The notes under the pieces: model-generated
Databases searched by the model: none
Seen by the model: only the letters and a program-made list of their open reading frames with translations
What the model was told of the DNA's origin: nothing
Program-made: the position numbers and the translations under genes
Source of the DNA: Limnobacter humi
GTDB lineage: Bacteria > Pseudomonadota > Gammaproteobacteria > Burkholderiales > Burkholderiaceae_B
NCBI RefSeq assembly: GCF_024518835.1
Contig: NZ_JANIGO010000004.1
Location: 62,001-126,000 of the forward strand
Direction: 5' to 3'
DNA: 64,000 nt
Shown: positions 17,500 to 28,793 of the stretch, one piece after another
Layout of the letters: every line of letters starts with the position of its first letter
How positions within the stretch are numbered: position 1 is the stretch's first letter

Positions 17500-18225
17500 C
17501 TAGCCTGCGGTGGGATGAGGCTGAAAACCCTGAAGTTCGCCGTTGAATATTGCTTCCATCAACGCCAACTCGCGGTCCACGATGGTCTGAAAAAAGTCTT
17601 CAGGGCGCTTCAAACTGGCGAAAGCGGACAATCCCGCCCGCAGAAAATCGTGGAAATCTTCTAATTCAGCCTTGCGCGCCGCACCACGCGTCATGCGCAG
17701 TACAGATGACAACAAAGGCACCCGTGTGAGCTTGACCAACGATCGGCCAACCTCGGGAACCAGCAAAACCTGTTGTTGGCGAACAGTTTGCTCACCGGTA
17801 TTTCGAAACAATGTGATGTAAGTTTTTTCATCAAGCAATACTTTAGGATTAATAGTTAACTCCATCATTTTTTGAGCCAATTTTAAATCCATTTCTTCGG
17901 CCAAATGGTCCATGTAGATCACCTTGGCAAGCACTTGAACCGCCGCCTGCGGCAAGTATTTCTCGGCCTTGGGCAATACCCGCTCCACTTGTTGATCGCG
18001 GTCTTGAAGATCTCGTGGGGTGTACAGATAGTCCAGAAAGAAGCGACAGGCTGCCTGGGTGTCCTTATTATCAAGTAAATCCTGATAAGTCATTTTTAAT
18101 CGATTGTTTTGAAATGATTTTATCTCAATCAAACACCGCAACAATTCAGGATTGGCCGTGGTCATACGGCGCATTTGACGAACGGACCGTTGTAATTCCG
18201 AAGGGCTGGCAGAGGTTAAATTCAT
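17500..18225 (-). CDS. conserved protein resembling the FFLEELY-motif family
   Basis: 241 residues, no signal peptide or membrane segment. The stretch ACRFFLDYLYTPRDLQDRD (about 60-78) matches the FFLEELY...RD motif of a family of unknown function widespread in beta- and gammaproteobacteria. The rest is predicted helical. ATG at 18225 is chosen because the residues encoded upstream overlap the divergent promoter region. A block within the gene (about 17800-17910) is noticeably AT-richer than the surroundings. It precedes fadD on the same strand and is divergent from an aldehyde dehydrogenase gene. No function is proposed. Confidence 0.75.
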   Translation of the reverse strand: MNLTSASPSELQRSVRQMRRMTTANPELLRCLIEIKSFQNNRLKMTYQDLLDNKDTQAACRFFLDYLYTPRDLQDRDQQVERVLPKAEKYLPQAAVQVLAKVIYMDHLAEEMDLKLAQKMMELTINPKVLLDEKTYITLFRNTGEQTVRQQQVLLVPEVGRSLVKLTRVPLLSSVLRMTRGAARKAELEDFHDFLRAGLSAFASLKRPEDFFQTIVDRELALMEAIFNGELQGFQPHPTAG

Positions 18226-18357
18226 GAATTTCGACCGTTGAAAAGTGACATTGGGGGCAACCGCCGGTGCTGCAGCGCAACATTCAAAGCCCGTGGTCAA
18301 ACGCCCCAAAGTATGTTTACATTCGTTAATGGCAAATCCGGAGACAGAGACACAATC

Positions 18358-19809
18358 ATGAATGCCCCTTCCACACACATCGGTCAAGAACTCTCAGCAG
18401 CAGAACTGAAGGCGACCCTTGAATCACTGCGCCAAGCCTACCGCATCAACCCCTATCCCAGTTGGAATCAGCGTCGAGAGTGGCTTCAAAAACTCAGCGA
18501 CATGATATACGACAACAAGATGGCCTTTGCAGCGGCGATTTCAGAGGATTTTGGTTACCGCTCACCCAACGACACGCTGCTGGCCGAGGTATTCCCGAGC
18601 CTGGAAGGCATACGTCACGCCATCAAACATGGCAAATCCTGGATGAAGGTCCGCAAGCAGGGCGCCAGCATCTGGTTCAAGCCGGGCTCCACTGCACTGA
18701 TGCCACAACCACTGGGCGTGATCGGCGTGATTGTGCCTTGGAACTACCCACTGTTTCTGTCCGCAGGCCCGCTGGTGGCCGCGCTGGCCGCCGGCAATCG
18801 CGCATTTATCAAGATGAGCGAATACACCCCCCGCTTTTCCGCATTGCTGGACCAGAAGCTGGCTCAGTATTTGGGTCGGGATGTGGTGCAAGTGGTCAAC
18901 GGCGGCCCTGAGGTGGCTGCGGAATTCTCTCGCCTGCCCTTTGACCACATTCTGTTTACCGGGTCTACCCCAGTGGGCAAGATGGTCATGAAAGCCGCCG
19001 CCGAGAACCTGGTGCCGGTGACCTTGGAACTGGGTGGCAAAAGCCCGGCCATCATCACTGCTGAAACCGCCGCAAACGACGCCCGCCTGAAAAATGCGGT
19101 GGGCCGCGTCATTTCGGGTAAGTCAATCAACGCCGGTCAAACCTGTATTGCCCCAGACTACCTGTTGGTCCCCGAAGGCTGTGAGGACCGCGTACTTGCA
19201 CATGCCAAAGACATCGTCAGCAGACGGTTTCCGGACGGTGTTTTGTCCAAGGACTTCACAGGCATTGTGTCGGACCGACATGCCACGCGCTTGCAACGGC
19301 TGACGGACGAAGCGGCTGAGACCGGTGCCCGTATTGTGAACCTGATGAAAACCGGCGATAACCCGGGCCGCAAGGTGCCATTGACTTTTGTTCTGAATGC
19401 CAAGAACGACACTGGCTTGATGCAGGAAGAAATTTTCGGTCCGATATTGCCCATCGTCACGTACAAGAGGCTAGACGATGCATTGGCCTACGTGAACGCA
19501 CGTCCACGTCCACTGGCCTTGTACCTATTTGATGACAACAGCAAGACTCAAGAACTGGTGATGCAACAAACCATCGCCGGTGGTGTGTGCATCAACGAAA
19601 CCTTGTTCCACATAGCCCAAGAAAACCTGCCTTTCGGTGGCGTGGGTGATTCGGGCATGGGCCACTACCACGGCAAGTATGGCTTTGACACCATGACCAA
19701 ACTCAAACCCATCTTCAAGCAAGCCCGGTTCAACAGTGCTGAAATGCTGGCACCCCCCTACGGCAAGACCATCAAAATGTTGCTCGATATTTTGACCCGC
19801 AAGGTGTGA
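18358..19809 (+). CDS. coniferyl/fatty-type aldehyde dehydrogenase
   Basis: 483-residue NAD(P)-dependent aldehyde dehydrogenase closest to the coniferyl aldehyde dehydrogenase (CalB) group, which is short like class 3 fatty aldehyde dehydrogenases. Catalytic residues are intact: Asn129 in PWNYP, Glu224 in LELGGKSP, Cys263 in NAGQTC. ATG at 18358 is chosen; codons upstream lie in the divergent intergenic region. A C-terminal hydrophobic segment typical of membrane-bound FALDH is not clear. Next to lipase, acyl-CoA reductase and fadD genes, it may oxidise fatty aldehydes to acids rather than coniferyl aldehyde; this is inference. Confidence 0.87.
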   Translation: MNAPSTHIGQELSAAELKATLESLRQAYRINPYPSWNQRREWLQKLSDMIYDNKMAFAAAISEDFGYRSPNDTLLAEVFPSLEGIRHAIKHGKSWMKVRKQGASIWFKPGSTALMPQPLGVIGVIVPWNYPLFLSAGPLVAALAAGNRAFIKMSEYTPRFSALLDQKLAQYLGRDVVQVVNGGPEVAAEFSRLPFDHILFTGSTPVGKMVMKAAAENLVPVTLELGGKSPAIITAETAANDARLKNAVGRVISGKSINAGQTCIAPDYLLVPEGCEDRVLAHAKDIVSRRFPDGVLSKDFTGIVSDRHATRLQRLTDEAAETGARIVNLMKTGDNPGRKVPLTFVLNAKNDTGLMQEEIFGPILPIVTYKRLDDALAYVNARPRPLALYLFDDNSKTQELVMQQTIAGGVCINETLFHIAQENLPFGGVGDSGMGHYHGKYGFDTMTKLKPIFKQARFNSAEMLAPPYGKTIKMLLDILTRKV

Positions 19810-19876
19810 ACATCCAAGCGTGAACCTGCTGGCCCGGCCCTGGTCGGGTTGAGATTGAACAGAAGGAAAGCCTGCT

Positions 19877-20875
19877 GTGATCAGAACCCTCAACCGACTC
19901 TATTGGGTCGGTTATTTTTTGTTCGCGTACACCCTGTACTTCGTCATGCGGGTATGGGTGCACCTGTCCATCAACAACGCCTTGACGCTCTCGATCAGCC
20001 TAACGTTTGGCCTGCTGTTTCTGGCCCACGTGGGTTTCAACATTTCCGGCTTCGCCTTGTCATTCAGCGTGCGGCAACTGCCACAAGTGCGAGACAAAGG
20101 CTTGCCATTTCACAGCGCCGAGGGCGAGGGGTTCCACAGCCTGAACACATGGCGGTGGATCAAGGCTGTCTTGGCAGAAAGCCTGGCCAGTTTCAAACTC
20201 ATCATGCTTCAGCAACCCTGGTTCAACATTGATGAGGGGATCCGCCTGGCACCCAAAGCCTGGAAAAAGAAAAAGCCGCTACCGGTGCTGTTGATCCACG
20301 GTTACCTGTGTAATGCAGGCGTTTGGTCTCACACCCGCAACATGCTGGAAAAAGCCAACGTGACCACGCATGCCATCACGCTGGAACCAGCCATCGGATC
20401 CATTCGACGGTATTCAACCCAAATTCACGACGCCATAGAAGATTTGTTGAAAGCCACAGGGGCTCCGAGGGTGAAAATACTGGCCCACAGCATGGGGGGC
20501 GTGGCGACGCGCTACCATGTCACAGAATATGGCCATCATCGAATCGCCGGCCTGATGACCTTGGGCAGCCCACACTTTGGCACGGCTTTGTCCTCACTGG
20601 GTGTGGGCAAGAATGTTCGCCAAATGGCATGGGGTAGTTATTTCCTGCGACACTTGCGAGAGCACCCCAGCGACCGTGAATTTCAGGAAAAAATCATTTC
20701 ACTGTGGACACCCCAGGACAATATCGTGTGTCCACCTTCCTCCTGCAAACTGGAATTCGGACGGAACATTGCGGTCCCCGGTTGTGGCCACGTGAGCTTG
20801 GTCACAGATTCCACCACCGAAGACCTCATCCTCAACTGGCTGGCTGAGGATGCCCAAGCGTACGGTCAGAAGTGA
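19877..20875 (+). CDS. membrane-anchored alpha/beta-hydrolase lipase
   Basis: 332 residues. Two hydrophobic helices near the N-terminus (about 10-30 and 37-60) suggest membrane anchoring; the hydrolase domain begins at VLLIHGYLCNAGVW with the nucleophile in AHSMGG (about residue 206) and LGSPHFGTALS after it. The final His is probably in GCGHVSL near 302. It resembles esterase/lipase proteins that release fatty acids. The start is GTG at 19877 with GAAGGAAAG 7 nt upstream. Its 3' end overlaps the convergent acyl-CoA reductase gene by 10 bp, with no terminator between them. Confidence 0.85.
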   Translation: MIRTLNRLYWVGYFLFAYTLYFVMRVWVHLSINNALTLSISLTFGLLFLAHVGFNISGFALSFSVRQLPQVRDKGLPFHSAEGEGFHSLNTWRWIKAVLAESLASFKLIMLQQPWFNIDEGIRLAPKAWKKKKPLPVLLIHGYLCNAGVWSHTRNMLEKANVTTHAITLEPAIGSIRRYSTQIHDAIEDLLKATGAPRVKILAHSMGGVATRYHVTEYGHHRIAGLMTLGSPHFGTALSSLGVGKNVRQMAWGSYFLRHLREHPSDREFQEKIISLWTPQDNIVCPPSSCKLEFGRNIAVPGCGHVSLVTDSTTEDLILNWLAEDAQAYGQK

Positions 20876-22851
20876 ATACCCTGCAGCAAGGTGGTGAAGG
20901 CCACCTGGTCGGCCGTAGGCCCACCACTCTTCTTGCCCTTGGCCGCCGACTCTGAATCGGGGAACATCCGGAACGATGTGTTCATGAGGATTTGCGCTGG
21001 GCGCGGCACCAAAGCATGCATGACCTGCCCCAACACGCCCAAGCGCGTTGCAATGCGAACCGGCCTATGAATAACAGCCTTGGCCACCATATCTGCCGCC
21101 TGTTCTGGCGTTAGCGTGGGCACATTGTTGTACAACTTCGTGGGCGCAATCATGGGTGTACGCACCAGCGGCATGTTGATGGTGGTGAAGTGGATATTCA
21201 GGTCAGCAAACTCGGACGCTGCACAGCGCGTCCAGGCGTCCAGCGCCCCTTTTGAAGCCACATAGGCTGAAAAGCGCGGTGCGTTGGTCAGTACACCAAT
21301 CGATGAGATATTCACCACATGGCCTTTGCGGCGCTCCATCATTTTGGGCAGCAAACCATAGGTCACCCGCAGCGCACCAAAATAGTTGAGTTGCATGGTT
21401 CGTTCCAGGTCGTGGAATCGATCGAAGCTGTTTTCAATGCCTCGGCGAATGGATCGCCCCGCATTGTTCACCAACACATCCACGTGACCAAAATCTTTCA
21501 GCAGCAATGCGACGAATCGATCGCAATCGTCCATGTCGGCAATGTCCACTGCATAGGTGTGTACTGTGCCGCCCTCGGCTTGAATGAGCGCCTTCGCTTC
21601 GGCCAGTTTGTCGGCATCTCGGCCGCAAATCACCGTGATGGCCCCTGCCGCTGCAAATTTTTGCGCGGTGGCCAAACCGATGCCGGATGAGCCGCCAGTA
21701 ATCAGCACCACCTTGTCTTTGACCGTGCCACTGAGGCTTCGGTCCACAAAGAGGTCGGGGTCTAGGTTACGTTCCCAATAATCCCAAATCACCCAAGCGT
21801 AATCGTCGAGCTTGGGGCACTCGATGCCACTGCCTTCCAGCGCAGCCAATGTGTCGCGGCAATCGTAACGGGTTGGCCAGTTGATGTAGCCAAACACTTC
21901 TTCAGGCAAGGCCAGGTCTTTGAGCACTGCATTGCGAATGCGCCGCACCGGTGTCAAGCTCATCAAGCCCTTCTTCACCGCCCCTGGAATAAAACCAAAC
22001 ATGGCCGCATTCACACGCAGTTCCATTTTCGGCGCATGGGCGGCTTTGGCGAATATGTTCATCACATCGCCGATGCGCTTGGCATTCGGGTCCACCAAGT
22101 GAAATGCTTTGCCATCCAGACCTGGTTTGTGCGCAATATGGTCCATGGCATTGACCACAAAGTCCACTGGGACCAGGTTGATTCGGCCACCTTCCAGGCC
22201 AATTGTTGGTACCCAAGCTGGCAGCAGTTTGCGCATTTTCTGGATCAGCTTGAAGAAATAATATGGGCCGTCAATCTTGTCCATTTCGCCGGTTTTGGAA
22301 TCGCCCACAACAAAGGAGGGGCGATACACCCGCCAAGCGCCTTTGCAGTGTTTTCGAACAAGGGCTTCAGCGTCGTGTTTGGTCCGGAAGTATGGATGGT
22401 CCAGGTTTTCAGCTTCCTCAAACATGTCCTCACGGAAAATACCCTCGTACAAACCCGCTGCGGCAATGGACGAAACATGCTGAAAGCAACCAACACCCAG
22501 TGCATTGGCCAAGTCAACTGCGTTTTTGGTGCCTTGAATATTGGTTTGGATTTGGCTTTCCGCATCGGCAGCCAAATCGTAAATGGCTGCCAAATGAAAG
22601 AAATGGTCCACTTGTTTGGTCAGCATTTTCACATCCGCTGCCTTTAAACCCAACTTCGGTTGATTGAGATCACCCACCACCGGCACGCACTGGCCTTTCT
22701 TGGCACCCCAGTACTTTTGAAGCTCTGGCACCTTGTCAAGGCTGCCCTCTCGAATCAGGAAATAAATGATGCCTTTCCGCTTGTTGTGAACAAGGCGTTT
22801 AACCAAGCGCTTTCCGATGAAACCGGTTGCGCCGGTAACAAAATAGTTCAT
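20866..22851 (-). CDS. two-domain fatty acyl-CoA reductase (Marinobacter Maqu_2507-like)
   Basis: 661 residues, the same length as the Marinobacter fatty acyl-CoA reductase that converts acyl-CoA to fatty alcohol in two NADPH-dependent steps, and recognisably homologous along the whole length. The N-terminal extended-SDR domain has TGATGFIG (6-13), HLAAIYD (about 86) and YFRTK (154-158). The linker includes WDYWERNLDPDLF (about 356). The C-terminal classical SDR domain has TGGSSGIG (385-392), NNAG (462-465), SS516-517 and YVASK (530-534). Both active sites look intact. ATG at 22851 has AGAGGG upstream. It is divergent from a phasin gene and convergent with a lipase. Confidence 0.9.
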   Translation of the reverse strand: MNYFVTGATGFIGKRLVKRLVHNKRKGIIYFLIREGSLDKVPELQKYWGAKKGQCVPVVGDLNQPKLGLKAADVKMLTKQVDHFFHLAAIYDLAADAESQIQTNIQGTKNAVDLANALGVGCFQHVSSIAAAGLYEGIFREDMFEEAENLDHPYFRTKHDAEALVRKHCKGAWRVYRPSFVVGDSKTGEMDKIDGPYYFFKLIQKMRKLLPAWVPTIGLEGGRINLVPVDFVVNAMDHIAHKPGLDGKAFHLVDPNAKRIGDVMNIFAKAAHAPKMELRVNAAMFGFIPGAVKKGLMSLTPVRRIRNAVLKDLALPEEVFGYINWPTRYDCRDTLAALEGSGIECPKLDDYAWVIWDYWERNLDPDLFVDRSLSGTVKDKVVLITGGSSGIGLATAQKFAAAGAITVICGRDADKLAEAKALIQAEGGTVHTYAVDIADMDDCDRFVALLLKDFGHVDVLVNNAGRSIRRGIENSFDRFHDLERTMQLNYFGALRVTYGLLPKMMERRKGHVVNISSIGVLTNAPRFSAYVASKGALDAWTRCAASEFADLNIHFTTINMPLVRTPMIAPTKLYNNVPTLTPEQAADMVAKAVIHRPVRIATRLGVLGQVMHALVPRPAQILMNTSFRMFPDSESAAKGKKSGGPTADQVAFTTLLQGIHF

Positions 22852-23006
22852 GGTGGTATCCCTCTCTGTTCTGATGGTTTGTGGGTAAAAACTCTCATGG
22901 GGTTTAGTATGCCTTCTCTAGTCCCGCATGAATAAACTATTAGAATAGACAAAAATGAAAGGGTTCGCTGCGCCAGCCGCGAACACACCACCAGGAGAGA
23001 CAAACA

Positions 23007-23462
23007 ATGACCGGCAAGAAAAAATCCATTGAGAATCCGATCAAAGGTGCTGTGGACAGCGCGCAGCAACTGTTGAATGCTGGCCTGGGTGCCATCACCA
23101 AGGCACAGGAAGAAAGTAATCGGGTGTTGGAAAACCTGGTCAAGGAAGGGCAGGAAATTCAGGAGCGAACAGTGAAATTTGCCAATCAGAAAGTCGTTGA
23201 AGTCACTGGCGAAGTGACAGGCAAGGTGAGCAAATTGGCTGGCTCTGTCTCCAGCAAGGCCACCCAACACTGGGACAAGCTGGAACAAGTCTTTGAAGAA
23301 CGCGTTGCACGCGCCTTGGGCCGCTTGGGTGTACCCACCAACAAGGATGTTCAGCAACTGTCAGACCGGATTGAACAGCTGTCAGCGGCCATAGCCCAGC
23401 TGACAGGCCAAAAACCGGAGGCTGCTGCCAAAAAAACCGTCAAAGGCAAAAAGGGCGAATAA
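23007..23462 (+). CDS. phasin, PhaI/PhaF-type granule-associated protein
   Basis: 151 residues, almost entirely helical. The central part (NRVLENLVKEGQEIQ ... RALGRLGVPT) matches poly(hydroxyalkanoate) granule-associated proteins of the PhaI/PhaF family; a leucine-zipper-like segment (DVQQLSDRIEQLSAAIAQL) and a short Lys/Ala tail follow. Phasins coat PHA granules and control their size and number. AGGAG lies 8-10 nt before ATG 23007. It is divergently transcribed from the acyl-CoA reductase across 155 bp and is followed by a strong terminator. Confidence 0.9.
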   Translation: MTGKKKSIENPIKGAVDSAQQLLNAGLGAITKAQEESNRVLENLVKEGQEIQERTVKFANQKVVEVTGEVTGKVSKLAGSVSSKATQHWDKLEQVFEERVARALGRLGVPTNKDVQQLSDRIEQLSAAIAQLTGQKPEAAAKKTVKGKKGE

Positions 23463-24961: not shown

Positions 24962-25630
24962 ATGGAACGCAAGCCTCCAAGAAGAACAAGAGAACGAATT
25001 CTCGATTTGTCACTGCGGCTGTTCAATGAATTCGGTGAACCAAACATCACCACCACGGTGATTGCCGATGAAATGAACATCAGCCCGGGCAATCTCTACT
25101 ACCATTTCCGCAACAAAGACGACATCGTCAACAGCATTTTTGCCGGCTTCGAGAAAGAGATTGATGGATTGCTGGATGTACCTGGCAACCGGCAAGCCAA
25201 CATCGAAGACGCTTGGCTGTACCTGCAGGTGTCGTTCGAACTGATTTGGCGTTACCGGTTTTTGTACCGGGACCTGAACGACTTGCTGTCGCGCAACCGA
25301 ACCCTTGAAATCCATTTCAAACGCATTCTGAAACACAAGGTCGATGTGGCCCGCAGGCTTTGCGAAGGGTTGGTTGAAAGTGGCGACATGATGGCCAGCC
25401 AAACGCAAATCAATGCGCTGGCCACGAACATGGTGGTGGTGGCCACTTACTGGTTAAGCTATGAATACGTGCGAGACCCACGCCATTTCAATGACGAAGC
25501 CACCATGAGTGCAGCCTTGGCCAATGGCGTTTACCAGGTGATGTGCCTGCTTGCACCCTACTTGCAAGGCAACGCCAAGGAATTGTTTGAAAGCCTTGCA
25601 CAGTCATTTTTGACTGAAGACAACACATAA
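24962..25630 (+). CDS. TetR-family transcriptional regulator
   Basis: 222 residues. The DNA-binding domain at 8-55 contains the helix-turn-helix ADEMNISPGNLYYHFRNKDDIV; the C-terminal ligand domain is Tyr/Leu-rich and of unknown specificity. An AGGAG motif lies about 12 nt before ATG 24962. Only 20 bp separate it from the acyl-CoA-binding protein gene, so they form an operon. An inverted repeat in the promoter spacer suggests autoregulation. An acyl-CoA or fatty acid ligand would make sense from the neighbours but is inferred. Confidence 0.92.
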   Translation: MERKPPRRTRERILDLSLRLFNEFGEPNITTTVIADEMNISPGNLYYHFRNKDDIVNSIFAGFEKEIDGLLDVPGNRQANIEDAWLYLQVSFELIWRYRFLYRDLNDLLSRNRTLEIHFKRILKHKVDVARRLCEGLVESGDMMASQTQINALATNMVVVATYWLSYEYVRDPRHFNDEATMSAALANGVYQVMCLLAPYLQGNAKELFESLAQSFLTEDNT

Positions 25631-28223: not shown

Positions 28224-28793
28224 ATGTACGCATTTGAAAAAACAGCTGAACTGCTGAGCAAAACCAATTCCGAACTGAAAGCCCAGCACCAAGTTGCTGC
28301 CAAGGCGCTGAATAGCCTGGTTGAGTCCCAGTTCAGCCTGTTGTCCCAAGGCCTGGGCACCGCATTCACTGCTGCTGAGAAGCTGCCCCTGGCCGACAAA
28401 CCCCTGGTTGCAACCACTCGCACAGAACTGAAGCAAGGTCTGGAAAAAGTGGTGGGTGTAAGCCAGGCATACACACAGAAAGGCGTTGAGTTGTTCGAAA
28501 CACAACTGCCCGTTGTGATCGACAAAGGCTTCTCCTACGCTGCACTGGCGCTGTCACAAGTGGAATCTGTGACTGAAAACGTGGTGACCCTGAGCGTGTC
28601 TGCTCTGGAACAGGCCAAAAAAAACGAAACCCTGAAACCAGCCATTCAGCAAGCCGAACAAATCGCTGAGCAACTGTTCAAGAAAATTGGTGTGAAAGGT
28701 GAAGTGGCTGCGAAAGCAACCAAGAAGCCTGCTGCGAAGAAGGCAGCGCCCCGCGCCAAAAAAGCAGCCGCAGCCCCCAAGGCATCTGTTTAA
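28224..28793 (+). CDS. phasin-family protein with basic Lys/Ala tail
   Basis: 189 residues. Residues 1-150 are amphipathic helices with the phasin-family pattern (VESQFSLLSQGLGTAF, LEKVVGVSQAYTQKGVELFE). The last 35 residues are KPAAKKAAPRAKKAAAAPKA-like, similar to the histone H1-type DNA-binding tail of Pseudomonas PhaF, which ties PHA granules to the nucleoid. AAGGAGAT lies 6-7 nt before ATG 28224, suggesting strong translation. A hairpin terminator follows. It is the second phasin in 6 kb and not obviously a duplicate of the first. Confidence 0.87.
   Translation: MYAFEKTAELLSKTNSELKAQHQVAAKALNSLVESQFSLLSQGLGTAFTAAEKLPLADKPLVATTRTELKQGLEKVVGVSQAYTQKGVELFETQLPVVIDKGFSYAALALSQVESVTENVVTLSVSALEQAKKNETLKPAIQQAEQIAEQLFKKIGVKGEVAAKATKKPAAKKAAPRAKKAAAAPKASV

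Follow-up and report, generated by a model that had tools for sequence, protein, structure and literature searches.

A predicted alcohol-forming fatty acyl-CoA reductase of Limnobacter humi accompanies wax-ester synthase and PF05597 phasin genes across the Burkholderiales

The 64,000-nucleotide stretch of Limnobacter humi DNA analysed here (the window; contig NZ_JANIGO010000004.1, positions 62,001 to 126,000) encodes a two-domain protein of 661 amino acids that is very probably an NADPH-dependent, alcohol-forming fatty acyl-CoA reductase feeding wax-ester synthesis and storage. It is of the type of maFACR from Marinobacter aquaeolei VT8, an enzyme that we take to be Maqu_2220. The protein is a further member of a known enzyme family, in a group of bacteria where that family is not rare; the added value of our analysis is a genome-scale three-way association of the reductase with wax-ester synthase/diacylglycerol acyltransferase (WS/DGAT) and with the phasin family PF05597. 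Limnobacter thereby gains a complete predicted wax-ester pathway beside its polyhydroxyalkanoate (PHA) pathway, and the link to PF05597 yields a testable candidate for the coat protein of proteobacterial wax-ester inclusions.

The reductase open reading frame (ORF; Table 1) is intact and begins with ATG. Its N-terminal part carries TGATGFIG at residue 6 and YFRTK at 154-158, and its C-terminal part TGGSSGIG at 385, NNAG at 462, NISS at 514 and YVASK at 530-534; the length and the three motif positions given in the preliminary description (YFRTK, YVASK and TGGSSGIG) were all confirmed. Pfam places NAD_binding_4 (PF07993) at residues 5-236 (161.5 bits) and adh_short (PF00106) at 380-570 (180.7 bits), so that an extended-type short-chain dehydrogenase/reductase (SDR) domain is followed by a classical one in the layout of maFACR-type proteins (~650-665 residues). 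The NCBIfam equivalog model NF005539 aligns over its whole length (residues 1-661 to model positions 1-657 of 657) and scores 983.9 bits, where the cut-off is 549; judged by its score, the match is far above chance level. Because NCBIfam names this family only "SDR family oxidoreductase", automatic annotation likely conceals the formation of fatty alcohol. In the 10 closest loci, six from Limnobacter and four from metagenome-assembled genomes, the reductase is 82-88% identical, which together with the intact frame rules out a chance or artefactual origin of the ORF.

The residues on which catalysis depends in maFACR have counterparts in the window protein. A mutational study assigned the N-terminal aldehyde reductase site of maFACR to Ser126, Tyr152 and Lys156 and the C-terminal acyl-CoA reductase site to Ser515, Tyr527 (as printed) and Lys532, in a protein that ends at residue 661 (PMC7573125; this and the other papers are cited from the parts of their text that were available). 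The corresponding residues here are S128, Y154 and K158 and S517, Y530 and K534. Compared by published residue numbers, the two proteins thus differ by a constant shift of +2, except at the printed Tyr527 (+3), which we take to be a numbering slip for 528 because the YxxxK motif ending at 532 predicts that position. None of the six positions varies among 25 aligned relatives. A broader alignment has 100 rows, made up of 96 distinct sequences with the window protein and its own locus among them; there Y530 is kept in 100 rows and S128, Y154, K158, S517 and K534 in 99 each; the single deviating row (L076) is a wrong ORF, the proper reading of which is among the 25 invariant relatives. R34 (98 of 100 rows) and R411 (99 of 100) would, by what we take to be the rules for SDR enzymes, suit NADPH as cofactor. 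The preliminary description's assignment of the protein as a two-domain fatty acyl-CoA reductase, with the length and layout of the Marinobacter enzyme, is therefore backed by the domains, the full-length family match, the catalytic residues and the published numbering.

In a collection of plasmids, residues 377-661 are 51.2% identical to an SDR protein of Acinetobacter baumannii (four records), which is presumably Acr1, although the sole annotated record names it just SDR; this parallels the 53% identity published for residues 370-660 of maFACR and an Acinetobacter aldehyde-forming reductase (PMC7573125). The actinobacterial matches listed, all Tsukamurella proteins of this collection, align near full length at 41% identity. 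Among the best 60 of 612 phmmer matches to solved structures none covers both halves of the reductase; the best stretch is one half, nearly always the C-terminal one, and MxaA covers residues 4-349.

The wax-synthase step is present in the Limnobacter humi genome, which contains two genes for WS/DGAT, scoring 240.2 and 228.7 bits (cut-off 23.6), that encode HHSLMDG and HHALVDG versions of the HHxxxDG motif in ORFs of 515 and 480 amino acids. Of 16 genomes assigned to the genus, 14 gave a WS/DGAT match, and the other two are incomplete (85% and 65%). In an even draw of 300 genomes of the order, in which presence required E <= 1e-150 for the reductase, 1e-15 for WS/DGAT and PHA synthase (PhaC) and 1e-8 for PF05597, with weaker homologues left out, 40 genomes have the reductase, 42 have WS/DGAT and 39 have both. 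At genus level, all 18 genera with the reductase are among the 20 with WS/DGAT, of 134 drawn. Fisher tests of these co-occurrences take no account of phylogeny, which is controlled only in part by the genus counts and by 10 families in which genomes with and without the reductase both occur. In 27 of the 40 reductase genomes, a WS/DGAT gene is no more than 12 kb away from the reductase. Reductase and wax-synthase genes thus occur together across the order, which ties the reductase to wax esters and is strong genomic evidence that it would feed their synthesis. The preliminary description had pointed to wax chemistry, and the two WS/DGAT genes and their presence in 39 of 40 reductase genomes support that suggestion.

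By analogy with maFACR, the C-terminal SDR domain would reduce long-chain acyl-CoA to the fatty aldehyde and the N-terminal domain would reduce the aldehyde to the fatty alcohol (PMC7573125). The alcohol and a second acyl-CoA would next be condensed by one or both WS/DGAT enzymes, and the resulting wax ester would be stored in inclusions. Several observations weigh against this pathway. In Limnobacter humi itself the WS/DGAT genes lie outside the cluster, on contigs other than that of the reductase; one genome (G201, 84% complete) has the reductase and no WS/DGAT match; and three (G231, G305 and G340) have WS/DGAT and no reductase match. In addition, an AlphaFold model built from 25 sequences is weak (mean predicted local distance difference test score (pLDDT) 67.8, predicted template modelling score 0.54); pLDDT falls below 50 at residues 130-152 and 518-532, which include or adjoin catalytic residues, and the model offers no independent check of the active-site geometry. 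Among the papers listed in a literature search, from which subscription papers were mostly absent, none joins Limnobacter with wax ester.

Occurrence of the reductase in this group turned out to be less exceptional than the preliminary description had suggested by singling it out in a betaproteobacterium. The 40 of 300 order genomes fall in 12 families and 18 genera. Among the matches listed in the search for related loci, named genomes with the gene also include Massilia, Acidovorax, Hydrogenophaga, Ramlibacter, Polaromonas and others, and a survey had already described betaproteobacterial scaffolds on which WS/DGAT has a homologue of the reductase nearby (PMC10351704); an exotic status of the enzyme in betaproteobacteria is ruled out by the order counts. 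Within the family of the window, 8 of 151 genomes have a reductase above the NF005539 cut-off, seven of them in its genus, and in the class the gene is sparse (12 of 369 drawn genomes, two of the 12 from this order).

A phasin gene stands divergently upstream of the reductase, on the opposite strand, in 79 of 80 related loci; the one without it (L079) starts just 12 bases before the reductase. These loci are the best 80 of at least 586 relatives and are therefore biased toward close relatives, and the neighbour counts drawn from them by tblastn are lower bounds (flanks up to 10 kb, some shorter). The window phasin is the single PF05597 match in the Limnobacter humi genome and scores 88.0 bits with TIGR01837, under the 94.7 cut-off. 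The preliminary description had remarked that the organism also has phasins, a remark that mattered more than foreseen. A single match to a second phasin family, PF09361, lies ~158 kb from PhaC on contig C12 of this genome; the reductase is on C24. Across the order draw, PF05597 occurs in 46 genomes, among them every reductase genome (40) and every WS/DGAT genome (42). PhaC occurs in 200, of which 46 have PF05597 and 154 lack it at the thresholds used; on these counts the phasin does not appear merely to track PHA synthase, although each genome with PF05597 has PhaC as well. PF09361 was sought in 79 of the 200 PhaC genomes, namely all 40 with the reductase and 39 (every fourth) of the 154 without PF05597, and was found in 35 of the former and in all 39 of the latter. 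From the counts of phasins, PhaC, reductase and WS/DGAT, PF09361 goes with PHA synthase generally, and PF05597 with the wax-ester genes.

The arrangement beside the reductase varies in the even draw. A PF05597 gene lies divergently within 1.5 kb upstream of it in 24 of the 40 genomes, a WS/DGAT gene occupies the divergent place in 11, and the remaining five have neither there. The divergent WS/DGAT genes suggest an exchange of partners at one promoter region; in these 11 genomes (G170, G181, G216, G225, G259, G267, G297, G333, G363, G392 and G421) PF05597 is downstream on the same contig in seven and on another contig in four. When the window phasin was searched by tblastn in the 12 short-flanked loci of the class draw (L104-L115), a neighbouring phasin turned up only in L104, which belongs to this order, and L105; the association with the phasin is therefore demonstrated for the order and not for the class.

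These patterns suggest that the PF05597 phasin may coat wax-ester inclusions in these bacteria. We propose, tentatively, that in wax-ester-forming Burkholderiales PF05597 proteins mainly cover the surface of inclusions of wax ester (neutral lipid), their gene often sharing a divergent promoter region with that of the reductase, and that PF09361 proteins serve PHA granules. PhaP1 of Ralstonia eutropha, when expressed in triacylglycerol-storing bacteria, reportedly binds neutral-lipid inclusions (PMC6273058, citing Hanisch et al. 2006), and according to a review a phasin of Rhodococcus ruber has been isolated from lipid inclusions (PMC5658603). A PF05597 phasin need not signal PHA alone; if the proposal is true, many annotated PHA phasins would be mislabelled lipid-droplet proteins.

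It is quite conceivable, at about the same level of confidence, that the PF05597 phasin does the usual work of a PHA-granule protein and is linked to the reductase through shared storage regulation only, and much of what speaks for this weighs against a wax-ester coat. PhaC is present in all 46 PF05597 genomes, Limnobacter included, which makes the predicted wax makers here predicted PHA makers as well. Five reductase genomes (G187, G203, G272, G343 and G372) have no PF09361 match, and PF05597 may serve PHA in them; three others (G378, G430 and G439) have PF05597 and neither reductase nor WS/DGAT. PhaP1 of Ralstonia eutropha, a PHA phasin, is assigned to PF05597 in the figure legend of a review (PMC5658603), and phasins of such organisms are treated as PHA proteins in PMC10351704 and PMC4557100. 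In the latter, a survey of a sea anemone holobiont, the Limnobacter transcript with the highest representation was a phasin of 489 bp, which was read as PHA-related. That transcript may be from the PF05597 gene, since its length fits the range of PF05597 ORFs (447-528 bp in the window and 11 Limnobacter-type loci) and not two PF09361 ORFs (555 and 576 bp, longest reading from ATG). It also counts against the proposed coat that eight of the 24 divergent PF05597 matches are partial and weak (38-68 bits, cut-off 28.8), one of these being the only PF05597 hit of its genome (G422). Against an ordinary PHA role it counts that 154 of 200 PhaC genomes lack PF05597 at the threshold applied, whereas 40 of 40 reductase genomes and 42 of 42 WS/DGAT genomes have it, and that PF09361 takes its place in all 39 tested PhaC genomes that lack it.

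Table 1. Reductase gene of Limnobacter humi and its neighbours, in window coordinates
Feature	Position	Strand	Basis
Two-domain alcohol-forming fatty acyl-CoA reductase (predicted), 661 aa	20866..22851	-	ORF, Pfam, NCBIfam NF005539, motif positions
PF05597 phasin, 151 aa; proposed wax-ester inclusion coat	23007..23462	+	Pfam 120.3 bits, cut-off 28.8
155 bp separating the divergent start codons of reductase and phasin; presumed common promoter region	22852..23006	.	Sequence
Patatin-like phospholipase/lipase, 417 aa	23566..24819	+	PF01734 95.7 bits; tblastn in 53/80 loci
TetR-family regulator, 222 aa; candidate cluster regulator	24962..25630	+	PF13972 156 bits and PF00440; tblastn in 71/80 loci
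Alpha/beta hydrolase, 332 aa; possible neutral-lipid or ester hydrolase	19877..20875	+	Low Pfam scores, best Palm_thioest 35.1 bits (cut-off 26.8); tblastn in 19/80 loci
Aldehyde dehydrogenase ORF; start uncertain, probably downstream of 18238	18238..19809	+	PF00171 274.4 bits; tblastn in 11/80 loci, two distant and weaker
FFLEELY-motif protein ORF; start uncertain	17500..18387	-	NF047641 206.6 bits (cut-off 55); tblastn in 19/80 loci
Long-chain fatty acid-CoA ligase (FadD type), 560 aa	15729..17411	-	PF00501 322.9 bits; tblastn in 9/80 loci

On its other side the reductase converges with an alpha/beta hydrolase gene, with an overlap of 10 bp, followed by genes for an aldehyde dehydrogenase, an FFLEELY-motif protein and a FadD-type ligase that NCBIfam models of that type match lengthwise, all under their cut-offs. 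The nine loci with the ligase are all Limnobacter-type; about half of the 19 with the hydrolase, and likewise of those with the FFLEELY protein, are outside that type. In most Limnobacter-type loci (L004-L011) some 2 kb separates the hydrolase from the aldehyde dehydrogenase, the two being adjacent in the window (18238-20875) and in L012. The neighbours other than the phasin could serve wax-ester breakdown and the reactivation of the fatty acids. The proximity of the aldehyde dehydrogenase, hydrolase and ligase to the Limnobacter reductase also fits an enzyme devoted mainly to turnover or detoxification, which with these three would balance pools of alcohol, aldehyde and acid or recycle acyl chains, wax esters being minor. 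This we regard as improbable, for the ligase is found in only nine of 80 loci, the aldehyde dehydrogenase in nine plus two weak cases and the hydrolase in 19, against 79 for the phasin and 71 for the TetR regulator, and across the order the reductase tracks WS/DGAT in 39 of 40 genomes. The preliminary description had also raised a new role in acyl-chain recycling, and nothing that we found favours such a separate role. It is more improbable still that the protein is a generic two-domain SDR oxidoreductase acting on another substrate, such as another thioester or carbonyl, with a merely architectural likeness to maFACR: the bare NCBIfam family name and strong matches of single-domain SDR models would allow it, but the match of the family model along the entire protein, the agreement at all six catalytic positions, the Acinetobacter-like C-terminal half and the co-occurrence with WS/DGAT speak against it.

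The gap between the reductase and the phasin gave no operator in a palindrome test of the window's 155 bp. In 71 upstream regions of the reductase (the window gene and L012-L082 except L079), the dyads TTAGG-N8-CCTAA and CGCCG-N2-CGGCG each occur in seven, where 20 shuffles reach at most two, and shared 9-mers occur in up to 30. These elements could be operator sites; as the regions are related by descent, no conclusion is drawn from the dyads. Farther along the window, a 189-residue ORF at 28224-28793 with an Ala/Lys-rich end is 72-86% conserved in eight of the 80 loci; it is phasin-like by composition only and has no match in Pfam or NCBIfam.

The known systems closest to the one described here include the betaproteobacterial WS/DGAT scaffolds of PMC10351704, and among the matches listed in our literature search that paper is the nearest earlier mention of a phasin with wax ester or the reductase. 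Two of its scaffolds carry WS/DGAT with a reductase homologue ~59% identical to Maqu_2507, and another carries a phasin; unlike our reading, the paper links the phasin to PHA metabolism, and its available text does not mention PF05597 and the reductase as paired across genomes. FCR1 (Rv3391) of Mycobacterium tuberculosis, a 650-residue acyl-CoA reductase with a C-terminal reductase part, makes fatty alcohol for wax esters (PMC3522743), although it is of a distant lineage and is likened to the window protein by its published description only. The Acr1-type aldehyde-forming reductases of Acinetobacter resemble only the C-terminal half of the window protein. Unlike maFACR, the window protein comes from a betaproteobacterium and is an enzyme predicted from its sequence; compared through published residue numbers, the two share the length of 661 residues, the order of an extended-type and a classical SDR domain, and matching Ser-Tyr-Lys sets in both.

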